In this document: piece by piece, positions 19,549 to 61,470 of the stretch
How positions within the stretch are numbered: position 1 is the first letter of the stretch
How the letters are laid out: the number at the start of each line of letters is the position of its first letter
DNA from: Brassica napus
Lineage: Eukaryota; Streptophyta; Magnoliopsida; Brassicales; Brassicaceae
Direction of reading: 5' to 3'
Length of the DNA: 64,000 nt
Assembly (NCBI RefSeq): GCF_020379485.1
Contig: NC_063452.1
Coordinates: 9,651,065-9,715,064 of the forward strand
Translations under genes and position numbers: made by a program
The notes under the pieces: model-generated
Told to the model about the DNA's origin: nothing
Database searches by the model: none
Seen by the model: the letters and a program-made list of their open reading frames with translations, nothing else

Positions 19549-20624
19549 CAGATACATAGTCTAAAAATAATTTATATTTAATTCTTTGAAAATTTTTGAA
19601 ATTAAGAACACTTTAATTTGACTATAGTCATACTTTAGATGCAAAATATAGTAAAAAAAAAGTTCTGTGAATTTCAAAACTTGTCAATTACTTTGGCAAG
19701 AAAATCTTGTCAAATTATTTGATATATAAGGGATTTGATAATTTTATCAGACTATAATAATTTTTTTAAATTATATTATAAATTTAATCATCCATATAAT
19801 TTTAAACTTGGATCTGATGAATTTTGAGTTTTTAATTACACAAAATCATGAAGTTTTTAAGCATATTCTCATATTTGGATATAATTAAATTTTTGTTGAC
19901 TGTATTTCCACAATTTCACATACAAAAACCTCTTTGATAAAATTGTTTTGATGCATCTTACTTAATAATCTACATATTTCTTCCAAAGAAAAAAAATATT
20001 GTGATGGAAGCTCTAAGAACCGATTCTAAACGTGGTTGTTGTTGCGTTTGCATCGAGGAAAACAAAATATGTACCAGAAAATGTGAATTTGCTGCATATT
20101 TTCCAAATGAAGTGTATATATTTTCTTATACTTTATAATATGTCTTTTCTCTTATTGTGTTAGACATGATTTTTGAACTAGAATTTAATGTTGATGTATT
20201 GTTAAATCAATCTTTTATAGGCAAAGCGATTATGAAGCTGCTACTAAATTGTTTGGTACAACAAATATTATAAGCATGATGAAACTTGCTTCTCATGAAC
20301 AAAACCATTTGTTAGCATCATCGATACTCAAAGAAGGTGCTGCATGGACCGATGATAATATCAGAGGTGGATATGGAGTTATCCAAAAGCTGATGTGGGA
20401 AATCAAATTACATGAAGCCTACCTCTCTGAGAGAAAGAAGAAGATTTCAGAAGAAAAGAAACAAATAGTTCTACTTTTGAATCAGTATATATAATGAAAT
20501 TTATCTATCTTCATTTATCCAATAATAATTACTCAATGGTTGATCATATCAATTGTTGAAATTTAAAACATACCATGAGCACAGTGTAATTGTTGCAATC
20601 ACTTAATTGTGCATGCGTTATAAT
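19549..20624 (+). repeat. LBD tandem-duplication unit, copy 2
   Basis: Almost identical to 11117-12208 across upstream region, exons, intron and 3' flank. Its junction GCGTTATAA|TGATCATAAAA is uninterrupted and gives the ancestral, Helitron-free state of copy 1. Confidence 0.85.
20004..20494 (+). CDS. LBD8: LOB-domain (LBD/ASL) protein, copy 2
   Basis: Exon 1 is 20004-20113 and exon 2 20221-20494, with the same 107-base intron length as copy 1 and also 127 residues. The C block CX2CX6CX3C is kept (Cys13, 16, 23, 27). Differences from copy 1 are few: LRTDSKRGC for LGTDIKHGR near the start, IEENKICTRKC for IEKNKICTKKC, Ser for Pro in LASHEQ, and AYLSERKKK for SYLSKIKKK. All are substitutions; no frame is broken, so both copies could still be translated. 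The upstream flank matches copy 1 for about 450 bases and beyond that is AT-rich array. The LBD8 assignment rests on position next to CKX2 and family features and is not certain. Confidence 0.8.
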
Positions 20625-21079
20625 GATCATAAAAGAAGAGAAACTTTGAAACCTAAAAATGATATCAAATGTCATAAAGCAATTTAAAATTGCACTTTCA
20701 AATTGTAATTAAAGCAATCTTCTCATTTGTGTATTGAAAATTTTAAACTTTTTTTCATTGAATTCAGTTGTTAATAATTTCTTCTATTATACATTTTGTA
20801 ATGATAATACAGTTATGTGAGTTGCAAATACATTTATGTATACAAGATTGACAAATAAAAATCTATATTAATAAAAGAGACATTTTGAGGCTCCATGGAT
20901 GTCCATGTAAGCGACAAAAATTTCTCCCAAAAAATGCCACATGGCAATATTACTAAATAAAAAATAATAAGTAAATATAAAATATAAAATATAAGAAAGA
21001 ATAAATAATAAGAAAATATACATAAAAGAAAAATAAGTAAATCTACAATATAAGAAATAGAAAAACTAAATTAAACATC
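20625..21079 (+). repeat. AT-rich leader and short array after LBD copy 2
   Basis: The same leader as at 18462 (TGATCATAAAA..., GATATCAAATGTCATAAAGC, ATCTATATTAATAAAAGAGA) followed by about 140 bases of array. It is cut at 21079 by the CACTA element, whose 3-base target is ATC in the module TTAAACATCTATC. Confidence 0.8.
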
Positions 21080-21679
21080 CACTACAAGAAAACATAAATT
21101 TTACGAGGGCGGTTTTCCTCGTGAGTTCGTCGTAAAAGAGGCTTTACGAGGACTTAGCGAGGAAACACGTTTTGTCGTTACTCATTCGTCATTACACATA
21201 TTTCCTCGCAAATTCGTCGTAAATTAGCGAAAAAAATATTTCGTCGTAAAAACGAAGAAAACAAATCGTCGTAAAGACCACTTAGTCAGTCGACGTAAGA
21301 ATGTCCCTACCGTTCCTCGTAAATACCACGAAAGCATTTCCTCGTAAACGACAAGTACATATTTCCTCGTAAAATTCACGTAATTACCTTGAAATGTTTT
21401 CCTCGTAATTTTCACGTAAATACCTTGAAAGTATTCCTCGTAAAATATTCGTTTAACATTTCTCGTGATTTCCTCGTAAAATGTTCAACGTAAATAAGTC
21501 GAAGATTAGCTACGAATTTACTTCATTTTATTATTTAACAAATTTAAAAATATAATTAAAAAATATTTAAAATTATTTAAATTATTACTAAAATTAAAAT
21601 TTTAAAAATAAATAAATACGCAAATATTTTAAATATAAATAAGTTTTGAATTTATAATACAACCACGGAAAAAAAAGAA

Positions 21680-23525
<1,846 letters not shown>

Positions 23526-23586
23526 TACGAAATGGAGAGGAAGTGGAGAGGAAGTAGAGAGGAAAGAAAGAGTGAGCCCTCGGGGG

Positions 23587-23594
23587 TATATATA
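23587..23594 (-). promoter_or_regulatory. TATA box for the Transposase_24 gene
   Basis: TATATATA on the minus strand, about 60 bases before the ATG at 23525, fits a core promoter. Between it and the plus-strand TATA at 23768 lie copies of the TTCCTCGTAA/ACGACGA repeats that also occupy the element's subterminal region. Confidence 0.55.
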
Positions 23595-23704
23595 AGATTA
23601 CATATCGTCGCAAATTCCTCGTAAGGTTACGACGAAATAGCGAGCAGTTACAAAGGCTCGTGTTTTATTGTACGAGGAAATAGCAAGGAATTACAAAGAC
23701 CCGT

Positions 23705-23767
23705 GTTTTTATATACGGGGTATTAACGACGATTTTGTTTACGTGGAATTGACGAGCCGCGCTTTCC
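23705..23767 (+). repeat. Direct repeat flanking the hairpin cassette, left copy
   Basis: This stretch (TATACGGGGTATTAACGACG ... ACGTGGAATTGACGAGCC) is about 85% alike to 23999-24061 (ACAACGGGGTATTTACGACG ... ACATGGAATTAACGAGCC). A third partial copy is at 24106-24140. The two copies bracket the TATA box and hairpin. Confidence 0.75.
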
Positions 23768-23775
23768 TATAAATA
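23768..23775 (+). promoter_or_regulatory. Plus-strand TATA box before the hairpin
   Basis: CTATAAATA is a near-ideal plant TATA box, on the strand opposite to both transposase genes. About 30 bases downstream (near 23800) the sequence becomes a C/A-rich leader of the type usual at plant transcript starts. The hairpin begins about 75 bases after that. No protein-coding frame follows. Confidence 0.65.
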
Positions 23776-23875
23776 TACCCACAACTCTCATTCTCAAACC
23801 ACACACAAACTCTCAAATCACACCCTATCTCAAATCACACTCCTCAGCAAAATCCTGTTCAAATTATAAATATTT

Positions 23876-23990
23876 AAAAAAAGGAAAAGAAGAAGATATT
23901 AGAATTCATGTGGGCGAGACTTACTTATTATAATTGCTGGAAGTCTTGCCACATGTGAATCTGATATCTTTCTCCTTTTTCTTTTTTTTT
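23876..23990 (+). ncRNA. Candidate microRNA precursor hairpin in the CACTA element
   Basis: The 5' arm (about 23881-23922) and 3' arm (23941-23985) pair over roughly 40 bases around an 18-base loop. GAGACTT at 23916-23922 pairs with AAGTCTT at 23941-23947, ATGTGG with CCACAT, and AAGATAT with ATATCTT. A few single-base bulges, a two-base bulge and several G:U pairs interrupt it. This length, imperfection and single loop fit a plant MIR foldback rather than a perfect inverted repeat or MITE. It follows a TATA box at 23768 and an apparent short leader. The likely 21-22-nt products would lie about 23896-23918 and 23945-23966. No known microRNA family is recognised and no target is assigned. It could instead feed siRNA production, or be a chance foldback. 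Confidence 0.6.
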
Positions 23991-23998
23991 CTAGTTTT

Positions 23999-24061
23999 TA
24001 CACAACGGGGTATTTACGACGATTTGCGCTTACATGGAATTAACGAGCCCCGCGTTCTTTA
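23999..24061 (+). repeat. Direct repeat flanking the hairpin cassette, right copy
   Basis: Partner of 23705-23767. After it the plus strand continues with more ACGAGTCC/ACGACGATTT words and then the 3' untranslated region of the transposase gene on the other strand. Confidence 0.75.
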
Positions 24062-24235
24062 TTTTTATATTTCGTCGTTATTTTCTCGTTGACTTACGAG
24101 TCCTTTACGACGATTTTTACTTACGTGGAATTAACGAGTGTTATGTTTAAATTCCTAAAATCCGAAACCCCAAACCCCATATTCCTTATTTTCTACTTCA
24201 TATATTACAAACCCCATCTTTATTTCCACTCCAAA

Positions 24236-24355
24236 CCACAATTACCACATTTGCTTATTCATAAAACAAACTCCCACATTACCTTATTCATAAAACAAAC
24301 CCCACATTACCTTATTCATAAAACAAACTCCCACATCTTATTCATAAAACACACT
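24236..24355. repeat. Tandem repeat of about 29 bp in the transposase 3' region
   Basis: Four imperfect copies of a unit containing TTATTCATAAAACAAACTCC and CACATTACC, just past the stop codon of the minus-strand transposase gene. Probably 3'-UTR repeat expansion. Confidence 0.8.
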
Positions 24356-24372
24356 ACACAAAATCAAATACA

Positions 24373-27300
24373 TCAATCGGATACATCGACATTCTCGTCA
24401 TCACTAGAAACATCATCATTTTCATTAAACTCATCTTCAACAGCTTCGTCTGTGGCTTCATCGGTAAAATCTTCGTACTCGTGATTATGCGGATCAATGA
24501 GAAGGATGTCATCAATTTCTTGTTCAGGTTCCTCGACTTCATTTATCTGTTCTTCTTGCAATGGTGGTTCTTCTCCACTGATGATTCGTCCTCGAGGTGT
24601 AACTTTGATCACTACTAACCAATTTATACCTGAATCTCTCATCCGAGGGTATGGAAGGAAGCTAACTTGGTCTGCTTGTGAAGCTAAGATGAAAGGCTCG
24701 AATTTGTTGTACCTTCGTCCACCGTTGACATCAACTACACCAAATTTGTTAGACCGAACACCTCTGTTGATGACGGGGTCGAGCCATTCACATTTGAAGA
24801 GGACGCATTTCAGCTTCAGTATCCCTGGAAATTCGACTTCAATAATCTCCGTCAAGATCCCGTAGAAATCTGTTTCCCCTTTCACACATATTCCATAGTT
24901 ACTGGTCGCCCGCTTTCTACCATACTCATATGTGTGAAAAGTATAGCCTCGTGTGAAATACATCTGTGATGTGGTGACCTTTACAAGTGGAGGTTGAATT
25001 ACTTCGTGTAACCACTTAGGATAATCTGCATCGTCGTCATAATCAACCTGCAAAAATAAAGAGAATGTTAATGAAATACAAATCATGTATGAAAAAAGAG
25101 TTTGAGTTAATACCTGATTCCGCAACCACTTAATGAAGTGTTGATCTTTCCTTTTGTCTACGTCACTTGTGGATATACCAGAAAATGTTTCTTCGACTTG
25201 AGAAACAAATAGGCTGTAAAAGCACATTTTATAGGAATGAATCTCTCGCAATTATATAATTAATTATACTTATATCTGTTTCGAAGTGTCCATATATGTT
25301 ACCTTTCAAAATAACGCATCACTGGATCCTCGCAATTGAGTAGAATATAGGTGTGTGCACTATGAGCGTCTTGTTCACTCGACCACCAAACCTCTTTAGA
25401 CTTCCCACCGAGTCGCCCAATCTGGCTAAAGATGTCTGGAGCACCAGCAACTGCATATGTTGGCGCAACACCACCATCATCATATCTTCTTGGAGCTCTT
25501 CTCCGGGTACGTACTTTTGACGCAAAGTAGTACGATGTGAAGTGAGAAACTTCTTCCGTCAAACTTCCAGCAATTATAGAACCTTCAACTATGGCGAGGT
25601 TCTTTGCTTTTCCCTTCAAATATTTCATGGCTCGCTCATACTGATACATCCATCCGTAATGTACAGGTCCACGAAGCAATGCCTCATATGGGAGGTGGAC
25701 AGCTAGATGCTCCATGCCGTCAAAAAATCCGGGAGGAAATATCTTCTCCAAGTTGCACAATAAGATGAGAATGTTCTCCTAAAGCTGTTTCACAACTTCT
25801 TCTTTAAGAATGTGTGTGCTCAGATCCCTGAAAAATGTTCCAAAGCCTTTTATATTCCAAAAAAAATTAAACACATTGTTAGTCATATATTATTTTACAA
25901 ATTAGACCGTTATAAAATTATTGTGATATAATACACTACGTACCTGCAAGTGCTTCATGTACGTTTGTTGGAAGTAGCTCCGCAAATGCAAAGGGCAGTA
26001 TTCGTTGCATAAAGACATGACAATCATGACTCTTTATCCCGGAGAACTTTTGACCATTTTCAACACATCTAGAGAGATTCGAAACATACCCATCGGGGAA
26101 CTTCACTTCTGATGCCACCCAGTTGAACAACACAGACTTTTTTCTGAAGATAATCTGAATATCGGAACGGGAACTTGTCCATTGCTTTTAATATGTAACT
26201 CGCTTTTTGAGAAAATATCCGGCAAGTCCAACCTCGATTTTATGTTGTCTTTTGTCTTCCATGGGACATTCAATATTGTATTCATGATGTTCTCAAAGAA
26301 ATTCTTCTCTATATGCATTACATCGAGGTTGTGGCGCAGAAGAAGTTTCTTCCAATATGGCAACTCCCAAAATATACTCTTCTTGTGTCAGTTGTGATGA
26401 ACACCGTAAGAATCATGCATATTACGAGGGACATGCCAATTACCACCCCAACGAACTGTTTCGTTAGCTCCGTAGTAGTCGATTTGCGCTTCAATTTGTT
26501 CTCCAGTTAGATATGGAGGAGGAGTGTCTCTCACAACCCTTTTGTGCCTAAACAAATTCTTGTTTCTTCGGTAAGGATGGCCAATGGGAAAAAATCAACG
26601 GTGACAATCAAACCAACTTGTCTTCCTACCATTCTTCAGTTGAAACGCATCTGTCGTTCCATTACAATATGGACAAGCTAATCTCCCATGTGTAGTCAAT
26701 CCAGACAACATCCCATAGGCAGAAAAATCATTTATGGTCCACAAAAGCATCGCTCGCATCGTAAAATTCGTCTTCGTTGAACAGTCATACGTCTTTACCC
26801 CTGTTGACCACAAATCCTTCAACTCTTTTATCAGTGGTCGTAGGAAAACATCCAGGGACCTTTTTGGATGGTTCGGACCAGGTATTAATATGGTCAAGAA
26901 TAGCAACTCCTGTTGCATGCATATCTCCAGTGGCAGGTTGTATGGTGTAAGAAAGACTGGCCACAATGAATATTGTCTCCCTGACATTCCGAACGGACTA
27001 AATCCATCTGTGCATAGTCCGAGATACACATTCCGGCTATTGCTAGTGAAATCCGGATGTACTTTGTTGAAATGTTTCCAGGCTCTTGCATCAGATGGAT
27101 GAGTCATCTCACTATCCGTCTGAGTATGCTCGGCATGCCATCTCATCTTTCCAGCAGTCTACTTTGATTGATACAATCTTTTCAATCTGTCTGTAATTGG
27201 TAGGTACCACATCCTTTGGTACGGTACCCTATTACGTCCCAGTCCTTGCTGCTTGAATCGTGGCTTCTTGCAGAATCGACATTCTTCTAGCTTCTCATCA

Positions 27301-27600
27301 TCTCCCCAATAGATCATGCAGTTGCCGATGCAAACATCTATCATCTCCGAAGGCAACCCAAGACTTTAAACCAGTTTCTGAATCTCATAATAAGAATCAG
27401 CAGACACATTGTCTTCCGGCAAATACTCTTTAAACAAGTCCGCCCATTCGTTCATGCAACTTTCAGGTAGATTGTGATCAGTTTTAATATTCATCATTCT
27501 AGCAGCTAACGAAAATTTAGAGAGACCTTCTCTACAACCACTGTAAAGTGGTTGATTCGCCGCGTTTAACATTTCGTAAAACTTTTTTGCATCTATATTA
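24373..27600 (-). pseudogene. CACTA transposase (TNPD, Transposase_21) pseudogene
   Basis: This catalytic protein would cut the element ends. Read leftward: AANQPLYSGCREGLSKFSL, the cysteine segment EECRFCKKPRF (27270), the Transposase_21 core (26595-27146: DGFSPFGMSGRQYSLWPVFL, LTIPGP-like LILIPGPNHPKRSLDVFL, LACPYCNGTTDAFQL), a DUF4218-like part (LDVMHIEKNFFENIMNTILN, 26300; HLPYEALLRGPVHYGWMYQYER, 25660), and a C-terminal DUF4216-like part and acidic tail (24373-25020). In-frame stops interrupt it near 27366, 27157, 26594 and 26396, and frame changes follow. The start is missing because the element is cut at 27648. It is dead as a transposase. Confidence 0.85.
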
Positions 27601-27648
27601 GGTTATTCATCTTCATCATGAGCTACGAATGCATCAGCTACCATATCA

Positions 27649-30584
27649 TCAACAACCAATTTAGTTGTTAATAATTTCTTCTATTATACATTTTGTCATG
27701 ATAATACAGTAATGTGAGTTGCAAATACACTTATGTATACAAAATTGACAAATAAAAATCTATACTAATAAAATAGACCTTTTGAAGCTCTACAGGATGT
27801 CTACATAAGCAAAAAAATTCTCCCGAAAAATGCCACGTGGTAGGCCTGGGCATCCGGCTCTTCGGGTCGGGTATTGTCGGATCCGGGTCCTTCGGGCCGG
27901 TTCCGGGTCGGGTCTTGTCGGGTCCGGGTCGGTTCGGGTCTATAATTTCAATACCTGTAAAATACCCAAAATTTTCGGGTATATTTCGGATCCGGGTCGG
28001 TTCGGGTATTTAGAACCCGGAATAGATCCGAAATACTCGAACTGGACCCGAAAACTCTAAAAATACCCGAAGAACCGCAAAAATACCCAAAATTTTTTTC
28101 AAAATCAGACCCGAAAACCCAAAACATACCCAAATTTTATCCGAATACCCAAATTATATTTTCTAAAAATCTAAAATTTCACCAAAAACCTACAATTATA
28201 TCCGAAAATTCAAATCCAAAACTTTAAAAAAAATCTGAAATACCAAAAATATACCCAATCACCCAAATATACCTAGTATATACAATTATGTTCGGGTACT
28301 TCGGGTACCCGAACGGGTCTCGGGTAGGACCCGGACCCGAACCGAGACCCGCGGGTCCAAAAAAAAAAGACCCAATAGGTACTTAGCATGGACCCGGATC
28401 CGGACCCGAACCTGTATTTTCGGGTCGGTTCCGGTCCGGGTCTTCGGGTCCGGGTAAAATGCCCAGGCCTACCACGTGGCATTATTACTAAAAAAATAAA
28501 TAATAAATAATAAGTAAATCTAAAATATTAGGGAAAAAATAATAAGTAATATATATAATATAAAAATAAAAATATTATATGAAACATCTATCATAATATT
28601 ATCATTTGATATATAAAAATAAAACTAGAATAAGTAAACATATAATATAAGAAAAAATAAACAAATAATAAATATAAAATTAAGAAATGAAAAATCTAAA
28701 TTATACATCTATCTTAAAATGTATATTAAAATAAAAAATAAGAATATATACAATATACAAAGTAGAAATATTATATTAAACATTTATTGTAATATTAGAA
28801 TAAGTAAATATAAAATATAAGAAAAAATAAGTAATAAGTAAATATACATACAAGACAAAATAAGTAAGTATACAATATAAGAAATAGAAAAACTAAATTA
28901 AACATCTATTTGAAAATTTATAGTAAAATAAATAATATGTAAATATACAACATGAAAGATAAAAGCAAAACAATTAGAATAAGTAAATATATTGAATAAA
29001 AAAGAGAAATATTACATTAAACATCTATCGTAATATTATAATTTGATATAAAGGAAGAACAATTAGAATAAGTAAATATACAATATAATAAAAATAAATA
29101 ATAAGTAAATATACAATATTAGAATAAGTAAATATTCAATATAAAAAAATAAACAATAAGTAAATGTACCATTAAGAAATGAAAGTAGATAAATTAACCA
29201 TCTCTCTGAAAAATCTATAGTAGAATAAATAATAAGTAAATATATAATATAATAAATAAAAATATTATATTAAACATGTATTGTAATACTAGAATAAATA
29301 AATATATTATACAAGAAAAAACTAAACAATAAGTAAATATATAATATAAGAAATATAAATATTACATTAAACATCTAACATAATGTAATCATTTTATATT
29401 AAATCAAAAAAATTGGAATAATTAAATATACAATATTAAAATAAACAATAAGTAAATATACAATATAAAAAATGGAAAAACTAAATTAAACATCTATCTG
29501 AAAAATGTATAATAAAATAAATAATAAGTAAATATAGAATATTGGAAATTAAAATATTACATTAAACATCTATCATAATATTAATGAATAAATAATAATA
29601 ATAAGTAAATATACAATATTAGAAATAGAAAAACCACATTAAACATCTATTTGAAAAATGTGTAGTAAAATAAATAATAAGTAAACATAAAATATAAGAA
29701 ATGGAAAAAAACATTAAACATCTATCTGAAAAATGTATAGTTTTACATTTTTACTATTTCCAAATATTTTTATAAGTAAATATAAAATATAGGAATAACT
29801 AAATAATAAGTAAATATACAATATAAGAAATAGAAATAGAAATATTAAATTAAACATCTATCGTAATATTAGAATAAGTATATATACAATATAAGAACAA
29901 ATAAATAATAAGTAAATATACTATATAAGAAATATAAAATATTACAGTAAACATATATCGTAATATTATCATTTGATTTAAAAGAAAAAAATTAGAATAA
30001 GAAAAAATAAAAATAAGTAAATATAAAGTGTAAAAATGGAAAAACTAAACTAAACATCTATCTGAAAAATGTATAATAAAATAAATAACAAGTAAATATA
30101 CAATATAAGAAATATAAATATTATATTAAACATTTATCGTAATATTAGATAAGTAAATATATAATATAAGAAAAATAAATTATAAGTATATATATAATAT
30201 AAAAATAGAAAAGCAACAATACAATAAATGGTTAAGCACCGATACCCCTTAGAAAAGTAAATTAGATACGTTTTGATATATGTTATTCCTTGTGTCATTA
30301 TTTCTATTTCCAGAAAAAATAATTGGTTAAGCACCAATACCACTTAGGTTAAACACACAAACATCGCAATAAAATTCAAACATAGCAGAAAATGATCACA
30401 TCAAAATTACAATACAATAATTTTGACCTACAAATATGAAAAAATCTATTACGCAAACTATAAATACAAAGCACTCATGTATTCATACAAACATATAATT
30501 CAGGATACAACGTCCAATAGAATAGTTACATAGTTAACATTTGAGAATCAAAATAGCCCGCACGTAACGCGTATTAACCCCTAG
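27649..30584 (+). repeat. AT-rich leader and long modular array ending in a Helitron-type CTAG
   Basis: It begins within the leader (ACAACCAATTTAGTTGTTAA), continues ATCTATACTAATAAAATAGA, then holds about 1.7 kb of AATAAGTAAATATACAATA, ATTAAACATCTATCGTAATA and ATTAAACATCTATCTGAAAA modules, the longest array in the window. A hAT MITE interrupts it at 27841. After non-repetitive DNA from 30200 it ends in CTAG followed by T at 30581-30585, with a weak GC-rich stem before it. The leader is 5'-truncated where it meets the CACTA remnant. Confidence 0.65.
27841..28471. mobile_element. hAT MITE, 631 bp, with 8-bp target duplication
   Basis: Ends TAGGCCTGGGC and GCCCAGGCCTA are inverted repeats flanked by the direct repeat CCACGTGG (27833-27840 and 28472-28479). 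The arms are built of repeated TCGGGTCGG/CCGACCCGA words. The host sequence without the element, TGCCACATGGCATTATTAC or close to it, survives in related leaders near 18780 and 20930, which confirms the insertion point. No coding capacity. Confidence 0.92.
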
Positions 30585-36798: not shown

Positions 36799-38535
36799 AT
36801 GGTGAATCCGTTGGCTCTTCTCGTCGGATTGACAATCCTTTTAGATCCTCTGAGTATAATGGTAGATGGGCTGGGAGTTAATTGGGGGACAATGGCCACA
36901 CACAAGCTCCCACCAAAGACAGTGGTTCAGATGCTCAAGGACAATAACATCAACAAGGTTAAGCTTTTCGACGCTGACGAGACCACCATGGGTGCGCTCG
37001 CCGGCTCTGGTCTGGAAGTGATGGTTGCTATCCCCAATGATCAGCTTAAGGTCATGGGAAGCTACGACCGAGCCAAGGATTGGGTCCACAAGAACGTCAC
37101 TCGTTATAACTTCAGTGGTGGTGTCAATATCACGTGAGTTTCCTCCTCACCTCTCTTCTTCCTTAGTTTGATTGTTACACATTGTTTCTTAGCTAACCTC
37201 TTGATGATGTGTTTCAGGTTTGTAGCAGTTGGGAACGAGCCGTTCCTCAAATCATACAACGGAACATTCATAAACCTAACATTCCCTGCACTTCAAAACA
37301 TCCAAAACGCTTTAAACGAAGCTGGACTAGGAAACTCCGTCAAAGCAACGGTCCCTCTAAACGCGGATGTCTACGACTCACCAGCAAGCGACCCCGTCCC
37401 ATCTGCTGGGAGGTTCCGTCCTGATATCCTCGGTCAGATGACTCAGATCGTTGACTTTCTCGGCAAGAACAACGCACCCATCACAATCAACATCTACCCT
37501 TTCTTGAGTCTCTACGGGAACGATGACTTCCCAATCAACTACGCCTTCTTCGACGGTGCTCAACCAATAGATGACCACGGTGTTAGTTACACAAACGTTT
37601 TCGACGCCAACTTCGACACTTTGGTATCTTCTTTGAAAGCTGTTGGTCATGGAGATATGCCGATCATCGTGGGAGAAGTCGGCTGGCCTACAGAGGGCGA
37701 CAAACACGCAAACAACGGTAACATATATCTCTTAGTGCTTTACAGCGTCGGCCCTGGGCAAAGCCAAATGAAACATTCCTACTCCTAAATTTTTTCGAAG
37801 AAAATTAAATATTATAGATCCTAAATTTATAATAAAAAAAGAAAAATTATTAAATTTTTTTTACTAAATCACCTACAGCCACGCAATGTTTGGTTTAGAT
37901 GCAATGTTTGGTTTTGAAGAATGGTTTTCTTTGCAGGCGAAGCTTATAGGTTCTACAACGGGCTATTACCGAGGCTTGGAACAAACAAAGGAACTCCATT
38001 GAGACCAACCTACATTGAGGTATACTTGTTCGGATTACTAGATGAAGACGCTAAAAGCATAGCACCAGGAGCGTTTGAGCGCCACTGGGGACTATTCAGA
38101 TTCGACGGGCAGCCAAAGTTTCCTCTAGACCTCTCGGGACAAGGACAGAACAAGTTGCTGATTGGCGCGCGGAACGTGACGTATCTACCAAACAAGTGGT
38201 GTATGTTTAATCCAAATGCCAAGGACTTGACGAAGCTGGCTCAGAACATTGATTTCGCCTGCACTTTCTCGGATTGCACGGCGCTTGGCTACGGGTCCTC
38301 TTGCAATGGTCTTGACGCGAACGGGAACGCTTCGTATGCGTTTAACATGTATTTTCAAGTGAAGAACCAAGATGAGGAGGCTTGTATCTTCCAAGGTTTG
38401 GCTACCGTTACTACGCAGAATATATCTCAGGGCCAATGTGATTTTCCTGTTCAGATTGTTGCTTCTTCCTCTTCTTATGTGTCTTGTTCTTTGGTCTGGT
38501 TGGTCGCTGGAGTTTTGTTTGTCTTGATGTTTTGA
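36799..38535 (+). CDS. ZETH: GH17 beta-1,3-glucanase with CBM43/X8 domain and GPI tail
   Basis: The family hydrolyses or binds callose at the cell wall; ZERZAUST-type members affect cell-wall organisation and tissue morphogenesis. Exons 36799-37133, 37218-37717 and 37937-38535 join in frame to 477 residues. A signal peptide covers residues 1-24 ([17 protein letters not shown]). The GH17 domain starts at LGVNWGTMA. The predicted acid/base Glu is E119 (VGNEPF) and the nucleophile Glu is E265 ([10 protein letters not shown]); both are present. A CBM43/X8 callose-binding domain (about 366-450) begins WCMFNP and has its conserved cysteines. The hydrophobic C-terminus (residues 452-477) fits a GPI-anchor signal. 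The ATG is chosen because an acceptor AG stands just before it. No defects seen. Symbol from remembered similarity to At2g19440; other GH17 paralogues are possible. Confidence 0.93.
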
Positions 38536-55576: not shown

Positions 55577-57442
55577 ATGCACCGAAGAATCTCCTCAGCC
55601 GAGAAAGGCAAGGCTGTTGCTCTGGAACACATACCAGCACCTCGAGTGGGACGTTTTCGGGTTTCCGAACCGACCAACCAGGCCGACAGTCAACGACACA
55701 CACTCTCTCTGATCGGTAGGGTGACAAACCCATCTGTGCAGAAGGTGTGGTCACTCATACCTTTCTTCACTGACCATTGGAAAGCTGACATCCCACCGAT
55801 TGGTACTGACTTGGGTATGGGTATGTTTAAGTTCCAATATGAACTAGAATCAGACTTGCTCACGGTGCTCGATAAAGGCCCGTACCACTACGCCCGCTGG
55901 ATGGTGATCCTACAGAGATGGGAACCTACTATCTCACCCAACTTCCCGTCGATGATTCCGTTTTGGATCAAAATACAAGGGGTCCCTATTCATCTCTGGA
56001 CTGAAGAAGTTGCTCGCGGCATTGGAAGCGATATAGGCACTTATGAAACAACAGACATCACAGAGCAAGCCTTACGTATGAGAGTTCACGTTAATGGCCG
56101 GCTGCCTCTTATTAAAACATCTGTCATCGAATACCCTAACGGCGATGAGGTTATTGCAACTCTTGTTTATGAAAAGTTAGAAAAACACTGTGTACACTGT
56201 GGAAGACTGGACCATGAGATGAGACACTGTCTAGAAGCAAAACACCAGAAAAAAGCATTCCTTGCGGAGCAAGAAGTCTCGCAAAAAACTGCAGATGATA
56301 CAGTCAATAAGGAGGACAGAATGCACCCCACACGTAGTTATGCGGGAGGTCCCCGAAGGCACTCCCCTAGAAGAGAAGACCGGTACAGACCCTATGCTAG
56401 GAATGACCAACCCCGCAGAGTTAATTACCCTAACTCCAGAGCTGTTGACAGGCAGAACTCTCGGAACGAGAAACATACCAAAGATGATTTACCTGCGGAA
56501 AGGCATGATCAGTCCCATTACCGCAGAAGGGATGATCGTAGCCCCTCTCGTAGAAGCTTACCTCCTCGCAATGTGTGTGAAACCTATAGTGGGGCGTCCC
56601 ACACAGCTATTCCATACGGGGGAAAAAGTCGATCTGGAAATCCCGCCTGTGAGGGAATGGAGTTTCCTCCGTCTCCTCCTCGAGCTGCTCTCTCTCTTGA
56701 GCAGCATAATCCACACCGATCTTGGTCTCGTGAAAGGAGATCGGATTGTATACCTCAGCTTGACCTGGATACGGCTAGAGGAGAGGTTAATGAAGTCATG
56801 CGCCAGTATACTAGTTGTGTGGACCCTTCGGAAAGTGCAGCTCGAAGGGAAAGAATCAGGATAGCGGAGGCTCAAGGAAGGCTCGAAGAATCTGCTGCTC
56901 TCATGGTTAGAGCATCTCGAGCACGCTTGGAAAATGCTACGACTCCTACAATACATAGTCCGCCAAGCAGAGAGACGCCAGAGCGCATTCCTATCTCTGA
57001 CAGGTTGGGTCCTATGCCTACTATACAATCTGCTACCACATCTACGCGTGTCCCTATTATGGCCAGGCTTGGCCCCCTGCTAGATGAGGTCAACATAAGT
57101 GATACTGAGCTCACTGAAACCTTACCTCAAGTGATGAAAAGGAAACTAGGACAACCTCCAGGAAGGAAGCAAGCTAATGCGAGTCCAGCACAAGGGACCA
57201 TCTCGAAGAAAAGACAGGTGCTCCAAGCAAAACCCCCTCTCAACAGGAGGAAAGCCTCTGGGGAGCAGACAAAGGTTAGCAAAACCACCAAAGGGAAGAG
57301 GAAGAGTAAGAACCCGTCTAAGGATGGAACCCCGAGGGAGGCGGAAGGCACATCATCAGAGAACTTGCCCATCGTTAATATGATACCGCCAGCGGCTCGC
57401 CGCAGGATGGATTTTCGGGTCCATCCCAAACCCGGTCCTTAG
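55577..57442 (+). CDS. LINE ORF1: DUF4283 and zinc-knuckle RNA-binding protein
   Basis: ORF1 proteins of plant L1 elements bind the element RNA. This 621-residue frame is intact. The DUF4283 region spans about residues 40-200 (SLIGRVTNPSVQKVWSLIPF, GMFKFQYELESDLLTVLDKG, PIHLWTEEVARGIGSDIG). A CCHC knuckle of pattern CX2CX4HX4C sits at 205-218 (CVHCGRLDHEMRHC). A long basic, Arg/Ser-rich segment follows, and the tail is Lys-rich. The ATG at 55577 gives the full domain; a separate 53-codon frame from 55170 lies in the 5'-UTR. ORF1 ends with TAG at 57440-57442, overlapping the start of the ORF2 frame. Confidence 0.9.
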   Translation: MHRRISSAEKGKAVALEHIPAPRVGRFRVSEPTNQADSQRHTLSLIGRVTNPSVQKVWSLIPFFTDHWKADIPPIGTDLGMGMFKFQYELESDLLTVLDKGPYHYARWMVILQRWEPTISPNFPSMIPFWIKIQGVPIHLWTEEVARGIGSDIGTYETTDITEQALRMRVHVNGRLPLIKTSVIEYPNGDEVIATLVYEKLEKHCVHCGRLDHEMRHCLEAKHQKKAFLAEQEVSQKTADDTVNKEDRMHPTRSYAGGPRRHSPRREDRYRPYARNDQPRRVNYPNSRAVDRQNSRNEKHTKDDLPAERHDQSHYRRRDDRSPSRRSLPPRNVCETYSGASHTAIPYGGKSRSGNPACEGMEFPPSPPRAALSLEQHNPHRSWSRERRSDCIPQLDLDTARGEVNEVMRQYTSCVDPSESAARRERIRIAEAQGRLEESAALMVRASRARLENATTPTIHSPPSRETPERIPISDRLGPMPTIQSATTSTRVPIMARLGPLLDEVNISDTELTETLPQVMKRKLGQPPGRKQANASPAQGTISKKRQVLQAKPPLNRRKASGEQTKVSKTTKGKRKSKNPSKDGTPREAEGTSSENLPIVNMIPPAARRRMDFRVHPKPGP

Positions 57443-60400
57443 CTATAACCAGCTGGAACTGTCAGGGGTTGGAGAATCCCCGGACAGTTCGACGATTGGG
57501 AGAGATATCAAAAAAGTTTGATCCCGATATGATCTTTCTTATGGAGACTAAAAACCCCAACGATTTTGTGCTCAAGAAGTTGGATCACCTTCACTATGAG
57601 TGCAATCACCTCGTCCCGCCATCAGGACATGGAGCGGGAGGACTGGCCTTGCTCTGGAAGCATGGACTTAATGTTCAGATCCTCGACTCTAACCCGAATG
57701 TAATTGATACTCTCATTGATTATGAAGGAAATTTTTTTTTTGCATCTTTTGTCTATGGGAACACTGATAGGAAACTGCGACTCAATCTATGGGACCATCT
57801 CCTCGGGTTAGCCCAAGCTCGGGATGACTCCTGGTTCCTCACGGGAGACATAAACGATATACTGTGTAGCGAAGAGAAAGATGGAGGTGTGATTCGGCTG
57901 GAAGGCTCTTTCTCTGATCTTCGAACGTTCTTCTCGGAAGGAGATTTGTTCGATCTACAACACACGTGAGATCCTCTTTCTTGGAGAGGTAAGAGGGGAG
58001 ATTTTGTGGTCCGGTGCAGACTTGACAGAGCAGCTGCCAACACTCGATGGGCAGAGTGCTTCCCCTCAGCTAGATGCCAGTATTTAGACTATGAGGGCTC
58101 GGATCATAAGCCTCTAATCTCCCTATTTGATAGGGGAGATAAGAGGAGAAGAGGCATGTTCCGCTATGATAGACGACTATGTAAGAATGAAGAGGCAAAG
58201 AATATTGTCGCTGATGCCTGGCTAGACGACCCGTTGGCTTCGGTGACTGAAAAATTGGCCAATGCGCGAAGTGTAATATCTGCCTGGAATAGGACCCAAC
58301 AAAAGAATAGCATGAAGATCATTGAGGAGAAGAGGAAAGAACTCAATGCTGCCTTATCTAGCCTTGTAGAGGATTCAGGTTTGATCCATGAAATCACGTC
58401 TCAGCTCAACTCGACTTATGCGGCAGAGGAAGAATATTGGAAACAGCGAAGCAGGCTCCTCTGGCTGAAACTAGGTGATCGAAATACCGGGTTTTTCCAC
58501 GCGGTTTCAAAGAATAGAAGAAGACGCAACGCTTTCTCAGTGCTAGAGAGAGAGGGGGGTGAGATGGTATATAAAGAGGAGGAGATTGCTCAAGTTATTG
58601 GTGAATACTTCGAGAAGCTCTTTACCACTTGCCCGGGGGAAAGAGCTGCAGCTGTGAATCGAGGGCTACATTGTATCATCACCGAGGAGGACAATGCGAT
58701 GCTGACAGCTATCCCGTCGCCTGAGGAAATTAGGGAGGCCGCTCTCTCCATCCACGTGGACAAAGCCCCAGGGCCTGATGGTTTCTCTGCGGGATTCTTC
58801 CACACGCATTGGAACCACATCGGCCCAGACATAGTCTCAGAGGTCCAGGAGTTCTTCAATGGAGCGCCACTCCCGGATGGTGTAAATGACACTAATATCC
58901 GGCTCATCCCCAAAGTCACCAACCCGCAAAAGGTTTCAGATTATCGTCCTATCGCGCTGTGTAATGTTTATTACAAGATCTACTCGAAGCTCCTGACGAG
59001 GAGACTGCAACCTCTCATGGAAAAACTTATCTCGAAAAATCAATCCGCTTTTGTTCCGGGCCGAGCAATTGGGGACAATGTCCTACTCACTCATGAAGTA
59101 CTACATTACTTAAAGACCTCAAAAGCTGAGCAACGATGTGCTATGGCGGTTAAGACAGAAATGAGTAAGGCGTATGACCGCTTAGAGTGGGACTTCATCG
59201 CTCTTGTTATGACTCGGTTGGGATTCCACCAAATCCTCATCGGTCTGATCATTCAGTGCATCTCTTCTGTCACATACTCCTTCCTCATTAACGGCTTGCC
59301 TAGAGGGAAGGTAGTACCGAGTAGAAGAATTCGCCAAGGCGACCCCCTCTCTCCCTACATATTTATTATATGTAGTGAAGTTCTCTCGGGATTATGTAGC
59401 AGAGCACAAGAGGAGGGTTTACTCCAAGGGATTAAAATCGCAAGAGGCTGTCCCCGGATAAATCACTTACTTTTTGCTGATGACACAATGTTCTTCGTCA
59501 ACGCTAATGAGAGTAACTGCAAGGCACTCAAGACTATCCTCCAAACATATAAAGAGGCCTCGGGCCAATGTATCAATGCGGAAAAATCAGCAATAACATT
59601 CTCAAAGCGTACCCCGGCGGACTTGAAAACACTGATCAAGACCTCTCTTCAAATTCAAAAAGATGGTGGAGTGGGCAAGTACCTTGGACTCCCGGAGCTA
59701 TTTGGCAGGAAAAAGCGCGATCTCTTCTCCTCAATTGTCGATCGCATCAAGCAGAAGGCACGAGGATGGTCAACTAAACTACTGTCTTCGGCTGGGAAGA
59801 TGGTTATGCTCCAGAGTGTTCTATCGCCTATCCCTTCATACTCAATGACCTGCTTCAAGTTGACAGTGTCGCTATGAAAGCGAATTCAGACTGTCCTCAT
59901 GCGATTTTGGTGGGATAACAATGAAAATGCCAAGAAGATGGCGTGGGTTGCGTGGGAGAAGATAGCAAAACCAAAGCCCGCCGGAGGGCTGGGAATGCGA
60001 GACTGCCAAAGCTTCAATGATGCACTGTTAGCCAAGATAGGATGGAGACTGTTGAATAATCCTAACTGCCTGCTGGGAAAGTTTCTAAAGGGCAAGTACT
60101 TTGCTGACTGCTCCATCTTACAAGCCACAGAAGCATCGGTTATGTCTCACGGCTGGCGTAGCGTTTTGATAGGGCGTGATCTTCTGCTAAAAAAAATGGG
60201 ATGGACTGTGGGGGATGGAGTGTCCATTAATATTTGGCAGGATCCCTAGCTTTGTTTAAACAAGCAGGAAAGACCTATGGGCCCGCCTTCAGAACAGAGT
60301 GTTGACCTCTGTGTTGCAGACTTGTTAGTCGATGGTGGTAAGCACTGGGATCGTCAAAAATTACAACTTCTATTCCCGGCATATGAAGAAAAAATTCTCT

Positions 60401-61470
60401 GCATCAAACCGAGTCTAACAGGCGCTCAAGATAAGTTAATCTGGTTAGGCACAAAGAGAGGAGAGTACTCTGTTAAGTCTGGTTACTATTTAGCCATAGA
60501 AGAAGAGCCGGATACTAGGAGAAATGATGCAGGTTTTAACTGGAAGAGGAATGTCTGGGCTCTGGACTGCGCCCCGAAGGTGAAGCTCTTTGCCTGGAAA
60601 TTACTTAAAGGTGCTATTCCCGTAGGCGAGCGGCTGCTCGAAAGACACATAGAAGTTGTTCCGAGATGCAAAAGGTGTGGAAACAACGAATCTATCACTC
60701 ACCTCCTCTTCCAATGCCAGTTTGCTCAAAAGGTTTGGCAGCTAGCCCCTTTACTTCCTGGTATGGACTCGAGTGGAATGTTAGATTTGATGGTGGTCTG
60801 GCTTTCAATATGTAACCAAAAAAGTCTCCCACCTGCGGGGGATGTTAATGGATCGGTGGTACCATGAGTCATGTGGTCGTTATGGAAAGCTCGCAACCGG
60901 TTAGTGTTTGAAGGATTCTCTGTCTCGCTTGAGGATACGCTATCTACAGCTATTAGAATGGCTCGTGAATGGAGCTTACAGAGCAAACCAGAGAAACCGG
61001 ACACTTCAAGGAGCAGGAAACCGGAGATGATAGCCCCAACTGGTACGAGGATAGTGCGCTCTGATGCTGCGTGGAGTGCGTCTAGTTTGACTGCCGGAGC
61101 TGGCTGGGTCATCCTTTCTTCCCCACAGAACATGACTTTTCAACAACACCTGGAGTTTGTAGCATCGCCTCTAATGGCAGAAGGTCTGGCCCTCCGGGAA
61201 GCGGTCCAAACCTGCCAGCGACTGAAGCTGCAACATATCAGATTTGAGTCGGATTCTGCTCAACTAATCAAGTGCCTTTCTTCAAATGAAACGATTGCAA
61301 AGTTGCATAGTGTAGTCTTTGATATCCTGAAGCTATCTGAGTTTTTTTATTCAGTGTCCTTTGTTTGGTTACCTCGTGAGAGGAATGTAGAAGCCGATGC
61401 CTTGGCTAAAGGAGCTTTAGCTCTGTTTGAACCCTTAGTGGTTGGTGAGATTGTTAATGCTCCCAACTAA
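57439..61470 (+). pseudogene. LINE ORF2: endonuclease, reverse transcriptase, RNase H (four stops)
   Basis: One frame of about 1340 codons is broken only by TGA 57967, TGA 59875, TAG 60247 and TGA 60865; there are no frameshifts. Domains: APE endonuclease (TSWNCQGLENP, FLMETKNPNDF, WFLTGDINDI, then GSDHKPLI), reverse transcriptase (KAPGPDGFSAGFF, IRLIPKVTNPQKVSDYRPIA, SKNQSAFVPGRAIGDN, RQGDPLSPYIFIICSE, LLFADDTMFF), zinc-binding region (WALDCAPKVKLFAWKLLKGA, CKRCGNNESITHLLFQC) and RNase H (RSDAAWS, AEGLALREA, FESDSAQ, VEADALAKGA) with its acidic residues kept. In RT motif A the usual Asp of DMSKAYDR is Glu (codon 59158-59160). Two stops sit where Trp is normal. No ATG is evident at the junction with ORF1. 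Confidence 0.92.

Follow-up and report, generated by a model that had tools for sequence, protein, structure and literature searches.

A CACTA transposon of Brassica napus carries, between its two transposase genes and on the opposite strand, a unit composed of a TATA box, a leader and a long hairpin, which we read, with a probability of roughly 0.6, as a non-coding gene that the element has in addition to these two: a cassette for a MIR-like hairpin RNA, whose transcript would be diced to trans-acting small RNAs. The observations behind this reading are the hairpin, the recurring TATA-leader-hairpin unit, paralogous hairpins, compensatory changes and a high copy number. The hairpin is a family feature of the CACTA element. 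Judged from its sequence it is real and conserved, and the reading as a transposon gene, which the initial annotation had put forward, is better supported than before. The window, by which we mean the whole 64,000-nt stretch of DNA analysed, contains the following features of the element:

21080-27653, minus strand: CACTA (En/Spm-type) element with truncated right end, recognised by its 5' terminus and by 92-97% identity of its main blocks to copies L015 and L016
22328-22696, minus strand: part of a TNPA-like gene (Transposase_24; Pfam PF03004, E 2.8e-7)
23601-23760, no strand: short CG-containing repeat block separating the TNPA-like promoter side from the cassette, sharing words with both element ends
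23767-23775, plus strand: TATA box of the hairpin cassette, CTATAAATA, from reading the sequence
23779-23875, plus strand: CA/CT-rich leader (leader motif in 71 of 72 loci)
23876-23925, plus strand: 5' arm of the hairpin, core 23894-23924, from the fold
23926-23938, plus strand: hairpin loop, without counterpart in other subfamilies
23939-23988, plus strand: 3' arm of the hairpin, core 23940-23970, from the fold
24005-24140, no strand: second CG-repeat block on the hairpin's far side, recurring in other copies
24373-27146, minus strand: remains of a TNPD-like gene in several separate frames (DUF4216, DUF4218 and Transposase_21; Pfam PF13952, PF13960 and PF02992)

The location inside a CACTA element, claimed earlier, is borne out by the 5' terminus (CACTACAAGAAAAC, at 21080), by the Pfam domains and by complete copies elsewhere in the genome. 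Of 20 copies retrieved with 9 kb each, two have both termini and equal 3-bp target-site duplications, namely L015 (7325 bp, duplications GTC/GTC) and L016 (7112 bp, TCG/TCG, with one mismatch in the right terminus). The Transposase_21 domain matches with E 3.2e-77 in L015, where a single 663-aa frame holds both Transposase_21 and Transpos_assoc, and with E 1.3e-67 in the window. CACTA termini, a 3-bp target-site duplication and a tnp2-type transposase thus place the family among the CACTA (En/Spm) elements. The window copy lacks its right end, its similarity to the complete copies stopping at 27653, and no second CACTA terminus indicative of a nested element was found within 20001-30000. Because the Transposase_24, Transposase_21, DUF4216 and DUF4218 matches are all on the minus strand, the plus-strand cassette, which separates the 3' end of the TNPD-like gene from the beginning of the TNPA-like gene, runs opposite to both transposase genes, as had been proposed.

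Folding of 23860-24000 gave a single-loop hairpin with 47 pairs and a 13-nt loop, its stem interrupted overall by six single unpaired bases. Its minimum free energy is -51.0 kcal/mol, compared with -21.9 +/- 3.5 in 200 shuffles, none of which was as low (z -8.4). The initial annotation had described an imperfect single-loop stem of about 40 bp (23881-23922 and 23941-23985) behind a TATA box and a leader; this layout was confirmed, and the stem proved slightly longer. The same stem is folded by the window copy and by all 39 of the other top copies. With one loop, a length below 300 nt and few unpaired bases in the 21-nt duplex, the hairpin has the shape of a MIR-gene precursor. No open reading frame of at least 120 aa, the lower limit of the listing, overlaps it, in agreement with the earlier statement that no protein frame is present. 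A search of 20000-29000 against Rfam gave nothing at gathering score, the hairpin's only match being mir-361 at 20.3 bits against a required 70, and no catalogued precursor family for the hairpin was found in Rfam. Inspection by eye recognised no upstream promoter element of the Pol III type.

We searched a genome of 997 Mb. The 223-base query found 39 other matches at 94-97% identity among the 40 scored out of 830 candidates. They are spread over nine large contigs, 48-74 Mb long, and a small one of 18 kb; ten further large contigs appear in the pattern listings, with A-type hairpins on five (C1, C38, C79, C96 and C234). Sets of nine and ten large contigs would fit the C and A subgenomes of Brassica napus, and we label them C-like and A-like. 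An 18-mer from the 5' arm occurs at 332+332 genomic places at up to one mismatch, the reversed-pattern control at 1+0, and within the length fetched the sequence surrounding the hairpin matches the element at all 20 exact 18-mer places examined outside the top 40. As a separate probe we used a tag of 23 bases from the beginning of the TNPA-like gene, some 400 bp away from the hairpin; allowing one mismatch, it occurs 424+410 times (control 0+0). Among the tag matches listed on contig C243, 21 of the 27 copies have a hairpin where one is expected: comparison of coordinates put the exact 18-mer at about 400 bp in 17, and the remaining ten, fetched at the hairpin position, have a hairpin in four and lack one there in six. 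The four comprise one with a single changed base (L100), two of another hairpin type, HPc (L103 and L108), and one with an extended stem (L106). In L106 (115-231) the apical stem is greatly extended, nearly perfect and apparently contains repeated arm pieces. Five of the six hairpin-less copies (L099, L101, L104, L105 and L107) have a CCGAAACCC-type array at the expected position, so this hairpin-less structure was multiplied too; L102 has neither hairpin nor array there. On the A-like contigs (C1, C38, C79 and the first 12.4 Mb of C96, with the hairpin listing complete to two mismatches and the tag at none), an A-type hairpin lies within about 430 bp of the tag in 18 of 21 copies by coordinates and is missing from the listing in three; the nine negative copies of both counts were judged at the expected position, displaced or more altered hairpins falling outside that check.

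Other hairpins were found by searching for the complement of the 3' arm, followed by fetching and folding. Six types resulted: HP1, the type of the window, HP2, HP3, HPa, HPb and HPc. The related subfamilies share the TATA box and leader and differ in their hairpins, of which some have two or three in tandem. HP2 and HP3 follow HP1 in L048, L073, L074 and L075, and the L076 stretch has the HP2/HP3 pair without HP1. Five A-like loci (L068, L069, L070, L072 and L082) have HPa and HPb as a tandem pair, HPa alone passed the filter in L071, and HPc occurs once in each of the 1-kb stretches L077-L079, L081 and L085. A single CACTA copy can thus hold three tandem hairpins of different types, as in L048 (434-1240) and likewise in L073, L074 and L075; in L048 the extra hairpins lie beyond the second CG-repeat block, and the two at 920-1240 fold with -130 kcal/mol (z -13). 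Across 89 hairpin segments folded, the stems have 41-53 pairs, and in five of the six types the terminal loop is only 4-6 nt. In five of the six types the 5' arm has one additional G (GUGGG against CCAC), a feature unsuited to homogenisation as a palindrome.

The claim that the arms are kept better than the loop held for one comparison and failed for another. Between the window and six A-like loci, 26-27 of 31 positions of the 5' arm and 23-24 of 31 of the 3' arm are identical, whereas 0 of 15 loop positions align; arm sequences had served to find the loci, which biases the arm identity upward. In the young C-like burst the variation is about the same in arms and loop, with a mean minor frequency of 0.022 and 0.023 for the arms and 0.017 for the loop. 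In the sample drawn with the 18-mer (20 loci and the window) the values are 0.007 for the 5' core outside the probe, 0.027 for the 3' core, 0.019 for the loop, 0.060 and 0.101 for the outer stem, 0.040 for the leader and 0.074 upstream. The same six A-like loci match the window at 77-87 of 95 leader positions, 17 of 20 in the TATA region and 115-120 of 160 in the adjoining repeat block. Since the 5' side of the TNPA-like gene matches at 135-136 of 151 positions in the two A-like loci covering it, the leader, at about 90%, is about as well kept as this neighbour and not better. The idea that the 3' arm is the more conserved was dropped: the six types give 9 changes in 30 positions for the 5' arm and 11 in 28 for the 3' arm (HPa arms entered with two overlapping bases), and the least variable 21-mers, with 6 and 5 changes respectively, clearly favour neither.

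Changes within the stem tend to preserve pairing. In 34 distinct hairpins, hand-picked from the 89 so that each type and variant is represented, 91.6% of 1155 cells are paired, equally in the outer stem (280/306) and the core (778/849). Changes on both sides of a pair occur in 34 cells, a number reached in none of 500 shuffles and compared with 3-13 in slid controls; 21 of these cells lie in 9 outer pairs and 13 in 25 core pairs. The covariation score of 0.143, against 0.111, was likewise reached in 0 of 500 shuffles. Two further measures are not exceptional, the number of pairs with a both-side change (6, reached by 75 of 500 shuffles) and that of further pair types (matched by 497 of 500). 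RNAalifold predicted 27 pairs, 6 of them with compensation. As read from these alignments, the arms persist with compensatory changes, and the window-type loop lacks a counterpart in the related subfamilies.

The promoter-like part of the cassette recurs with the hairpins. In 72 loci (three more did not cover the region), TATAAATA lies 60-200 bases 5' of the first hairpin, exactly in 67 and with at most one mismatch in 71; 40 of the 72 had been picked by a similarity that includes the TATA box (37 of them exact), and among the 32 picked without it the motif is exact in 30 and within one mismatch in 31, the exception being L076. From the position of the TATA box, transcription would be expected to start near 23797-23802. 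The CG-containing short words form three clusters in L015 and L016, at the left end, around the cassette and at the right end, the list of words for this search having been chosen by hand. En/Spm biology provides the ground for proposing that a TNPA-like protein binds such CG-containing repeats, and we consider it probable that the repeats of this element are bound in this way.

The reading that we favour assumes that a Pol II promoter, with the TATA box at 23767, drives a short transcript divergent from the TNPA-like gene. This transcript would consist of the leader and one hairpin here, and of the leader and two or three tandem hairpins in the related subfamilies. Dicer-like enzymes would cut the hairpin into small RNAs of 21-24 nt from the conserved arms, and these may act in trans, a transcript of the host being the likeliest target. 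The earlier attribution of a plant MIR layout stands as far as the precursor shape is concerned; as to the product, with a stem that is long and close to perfect and, in five of the six types, a terminal loop of 4-6 nt, a source of hairpin siRNAs is as compatible as a strict microRNA. It is possible, if on balance rather unlikely, that the hairpin is such a source and nothing else, with DCL2/3/4 dicing the stem into numerous siRNAs of 21-24 nt, none of them a defined mature species, which would feed methylation of the element's own copies, either as self-limitation or as a host trap. The 41-53 pairs of the 89 segments, the short loops and the extended hairpin of L106 would suit this well, and maize offers a precedent in transposon miRNA-like structures that correlate with small RNAs and methylation (PMC10760457, as far as its available text goes). 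Against such a source speak a TATA box and leader that recur across subfamilies, and central arms that are kept while the outer stem changes with compensation, although many of the loci were picked through arm sequences.

A hairpin that acts by its structure and yields no small RNAs, as a terminator or insulator between the transposase units or as a palindrome at the DNA level, would fit its location, with the 3' end of the TNPD-like gene on one side and the beginning of the TNPA-like gene on the other, and inverted repeats can survive without an RNA function; we nevertheless hold it to be improbable, given the TATA box and leader upstream on the hairpin strand, the sequence conservation of the central arms and the extra G retained in five of six types. 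Least probable of all is that the hairpin is a mere passenger whose apparent conservation stems from the recent multiplication of a few masters. The 94-97% likeness of the top copies, the equal variation of arms and loop within the burst, the multiplication of the hairpin-less structure seen in five tagged copies and a leader that is conserved no more than the TNPA 5' side are all what a passenger would produce, but arms, TATA box and leader persist between C-like and A-like subfamilies and in six types, and none of the other five has a counterpart of the window-type loop. The MIR-like cassette can be extended to a fuller and more speculative proposal, which we think rather doubtful as a whole. 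In it, a Brassica CACTA lineage would own a third gene devoted to RNA, a group of small-RNA hairpins driven by a promoter, which was retained and varied in the course of its history and is controlled by repeats that the TNPA-like protein probably binds. Its trans-acting small RNAs would weaken a silencing or growth function of the host, thereby helping the element to reach hundreds of copies. The hairpin-less copies offer a natural control.

We assign no target, as scoring of a few genes and of the matches listed gave no convincing site. The complement of the 5'-arm 18-mer in non-transposon context has 136+167 places at up to three mismatches (control 26+24), and among the 100 matches listed none has 0-1 mismatch and three have two. 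Two of these, the homeologous-looking pair L086/L087, were rejected with open frames of at most 77 aa, and the third (C485:44977740) resembles a recurrent sequence in the same listing. For the 3' arm, the 18-mer complement has 368+387 places (control 63+91), and L080, L083 and L084 were discarded with open frames of at most 65 aa; a second 3'-arm pattern has 146+126 places (control 23+33). Among the matches to this second pattern, a homeologous host pair, L097/L098, has a site with two mismatches on the sense strand of a 306-312 aa open frame in both members, with a marginal Pfam match only (KNTC1 ARM domain, 27.7 bits against a cut-off of 27.3). By rough arithmetic this site is probably at chance level, and because about seven such sites are expected and one mismatch lies near the expected cut position, we do not claim the pair as a target. 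The element's own TNPD-like gene was also rejected (24939-24956, minus strand, 18 nt with 4 mismatches, 3 in other copies), and the best plant score in the complete elements L015 and L016 outside the hairpin was 7.0, compared with 4.0-7.0 in 20 shuffled arm sets.

CMT3, DRM2 and MET1 had been suggested among the genes to examine, and for these the suggestion found no support: the best site in the CMT/MET1/DRM stretches scored 5.5, compared with 3.5-7.0 in 20 shuffled arm sets. In three DRM loci, scored for the sense strand across 6.5 kb in one and 3 kb in each of the others, the best site reached 7.5, compared with 5.0-7.5 in 40 shuffled sets. Matches in the PDB identify L093 as DRM2 and L088 as methyltransferase 1. 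The best chains for L091, namely 9mvy, 7ubu and 4fsx, are labelled methyltransferase 1, and we take them to be plant CMT enzymes; L089, L090, L092, L095 and L096 were assigned by their PF00145 match alone.

In rice, according to the available text of PMC3459959, miR820 lies inside CACTA elements, is 22 and 24 nt long and targets OsDRM2; its precursor is homologous to a stretch of OsDRM2 and has five copies in Nipponbare. A review describes it, in the part available, as an anti-silencing factor (PMC5943564). Like miR820, the Brassica hairpin is a precursor-type fold in a CACTA DNA transposon that was multiplied with its carrier (PMC3459959, same text). The analogy drawn in the initial annotation holds for this layout and not for the target, as no DRM2-type site in the three DRM loci exceeds the shuffled arms. 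Unlike rice miR820 with its five copies, the Brassica hairpin exists in hundreds of copies, belongs to a TATA-leader unit, has tandem hairpins in its relatives, lacks DRM complementarity in the three loci and is known from sequence alone. In the available part of a maize survey, 32.5% of CACTA elements have hairpins by one method, with a bias to the terminal repeats, and miRNA-like structures in transposons correlate with small RNAs and methylation (PMC10760457); the Brassica hairpin is similarly a stable transposon fold able to enter dicing, whereas its position is internal, behind a TATA box. If its role were a trans-acting counter-silencing encoded by the transposon, the anti-silencing VANC proteins of VANDAL elements, as described in the accessible text of PMC10398659, would be analogous, with the difference that VANC is a protein, whereas the Brassica cassette would yield an RNA, with a hypothetical counter-silencing role. 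B. oleracea has 4850 CACTA loci, 9% of them fixed (PMC7459127, available portion). A search of the literature on CACTA microRNAs and hairpins, Brassica included, found no report of this hairpin in the parts of the papers covered, and six plus six 14-mers from the arms occur in no paper text searched. Bot1 is reportedly a high-copy CACTA family in a Brassica genome, to which we liken the present element by description, as a CACTA element of high copy number in Brassica, and not by the Bot1 sequence.

In the literature examined, as far as its text was available, rice miR820 is the only transposon-borne microRNA acting on host silencing that we met. The Brassica cassette, if our reading is true, would be a second, independent case, built as a recurring promoter-hairpin unit instead of a captured gene fragment, and would mean that DNA transposons keep RNA genes among their own equipment.

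The surroundings of the element contain further repeats and genes. A direct repeat of 133 nt (93%) flanks the remnant at 20761-20893 and 27658-27790, its right copy directly after the transposase remnant, which points to a rearranged right end. Beside the element, at 27826-28486, lies a CGGGTC-rich inverted pair of 28 nt (96%) with a spacing of 605 nt. Farther along the plus strand, frames with Glyco_hydro_17 and X8 domains at 37168-38535 probably represent a host gene, and pieces of a LINE-like retroelement occupy 55577-60867 (DUF4283, zf-CCHC_4, reverse transcriptase and zf-RVT).
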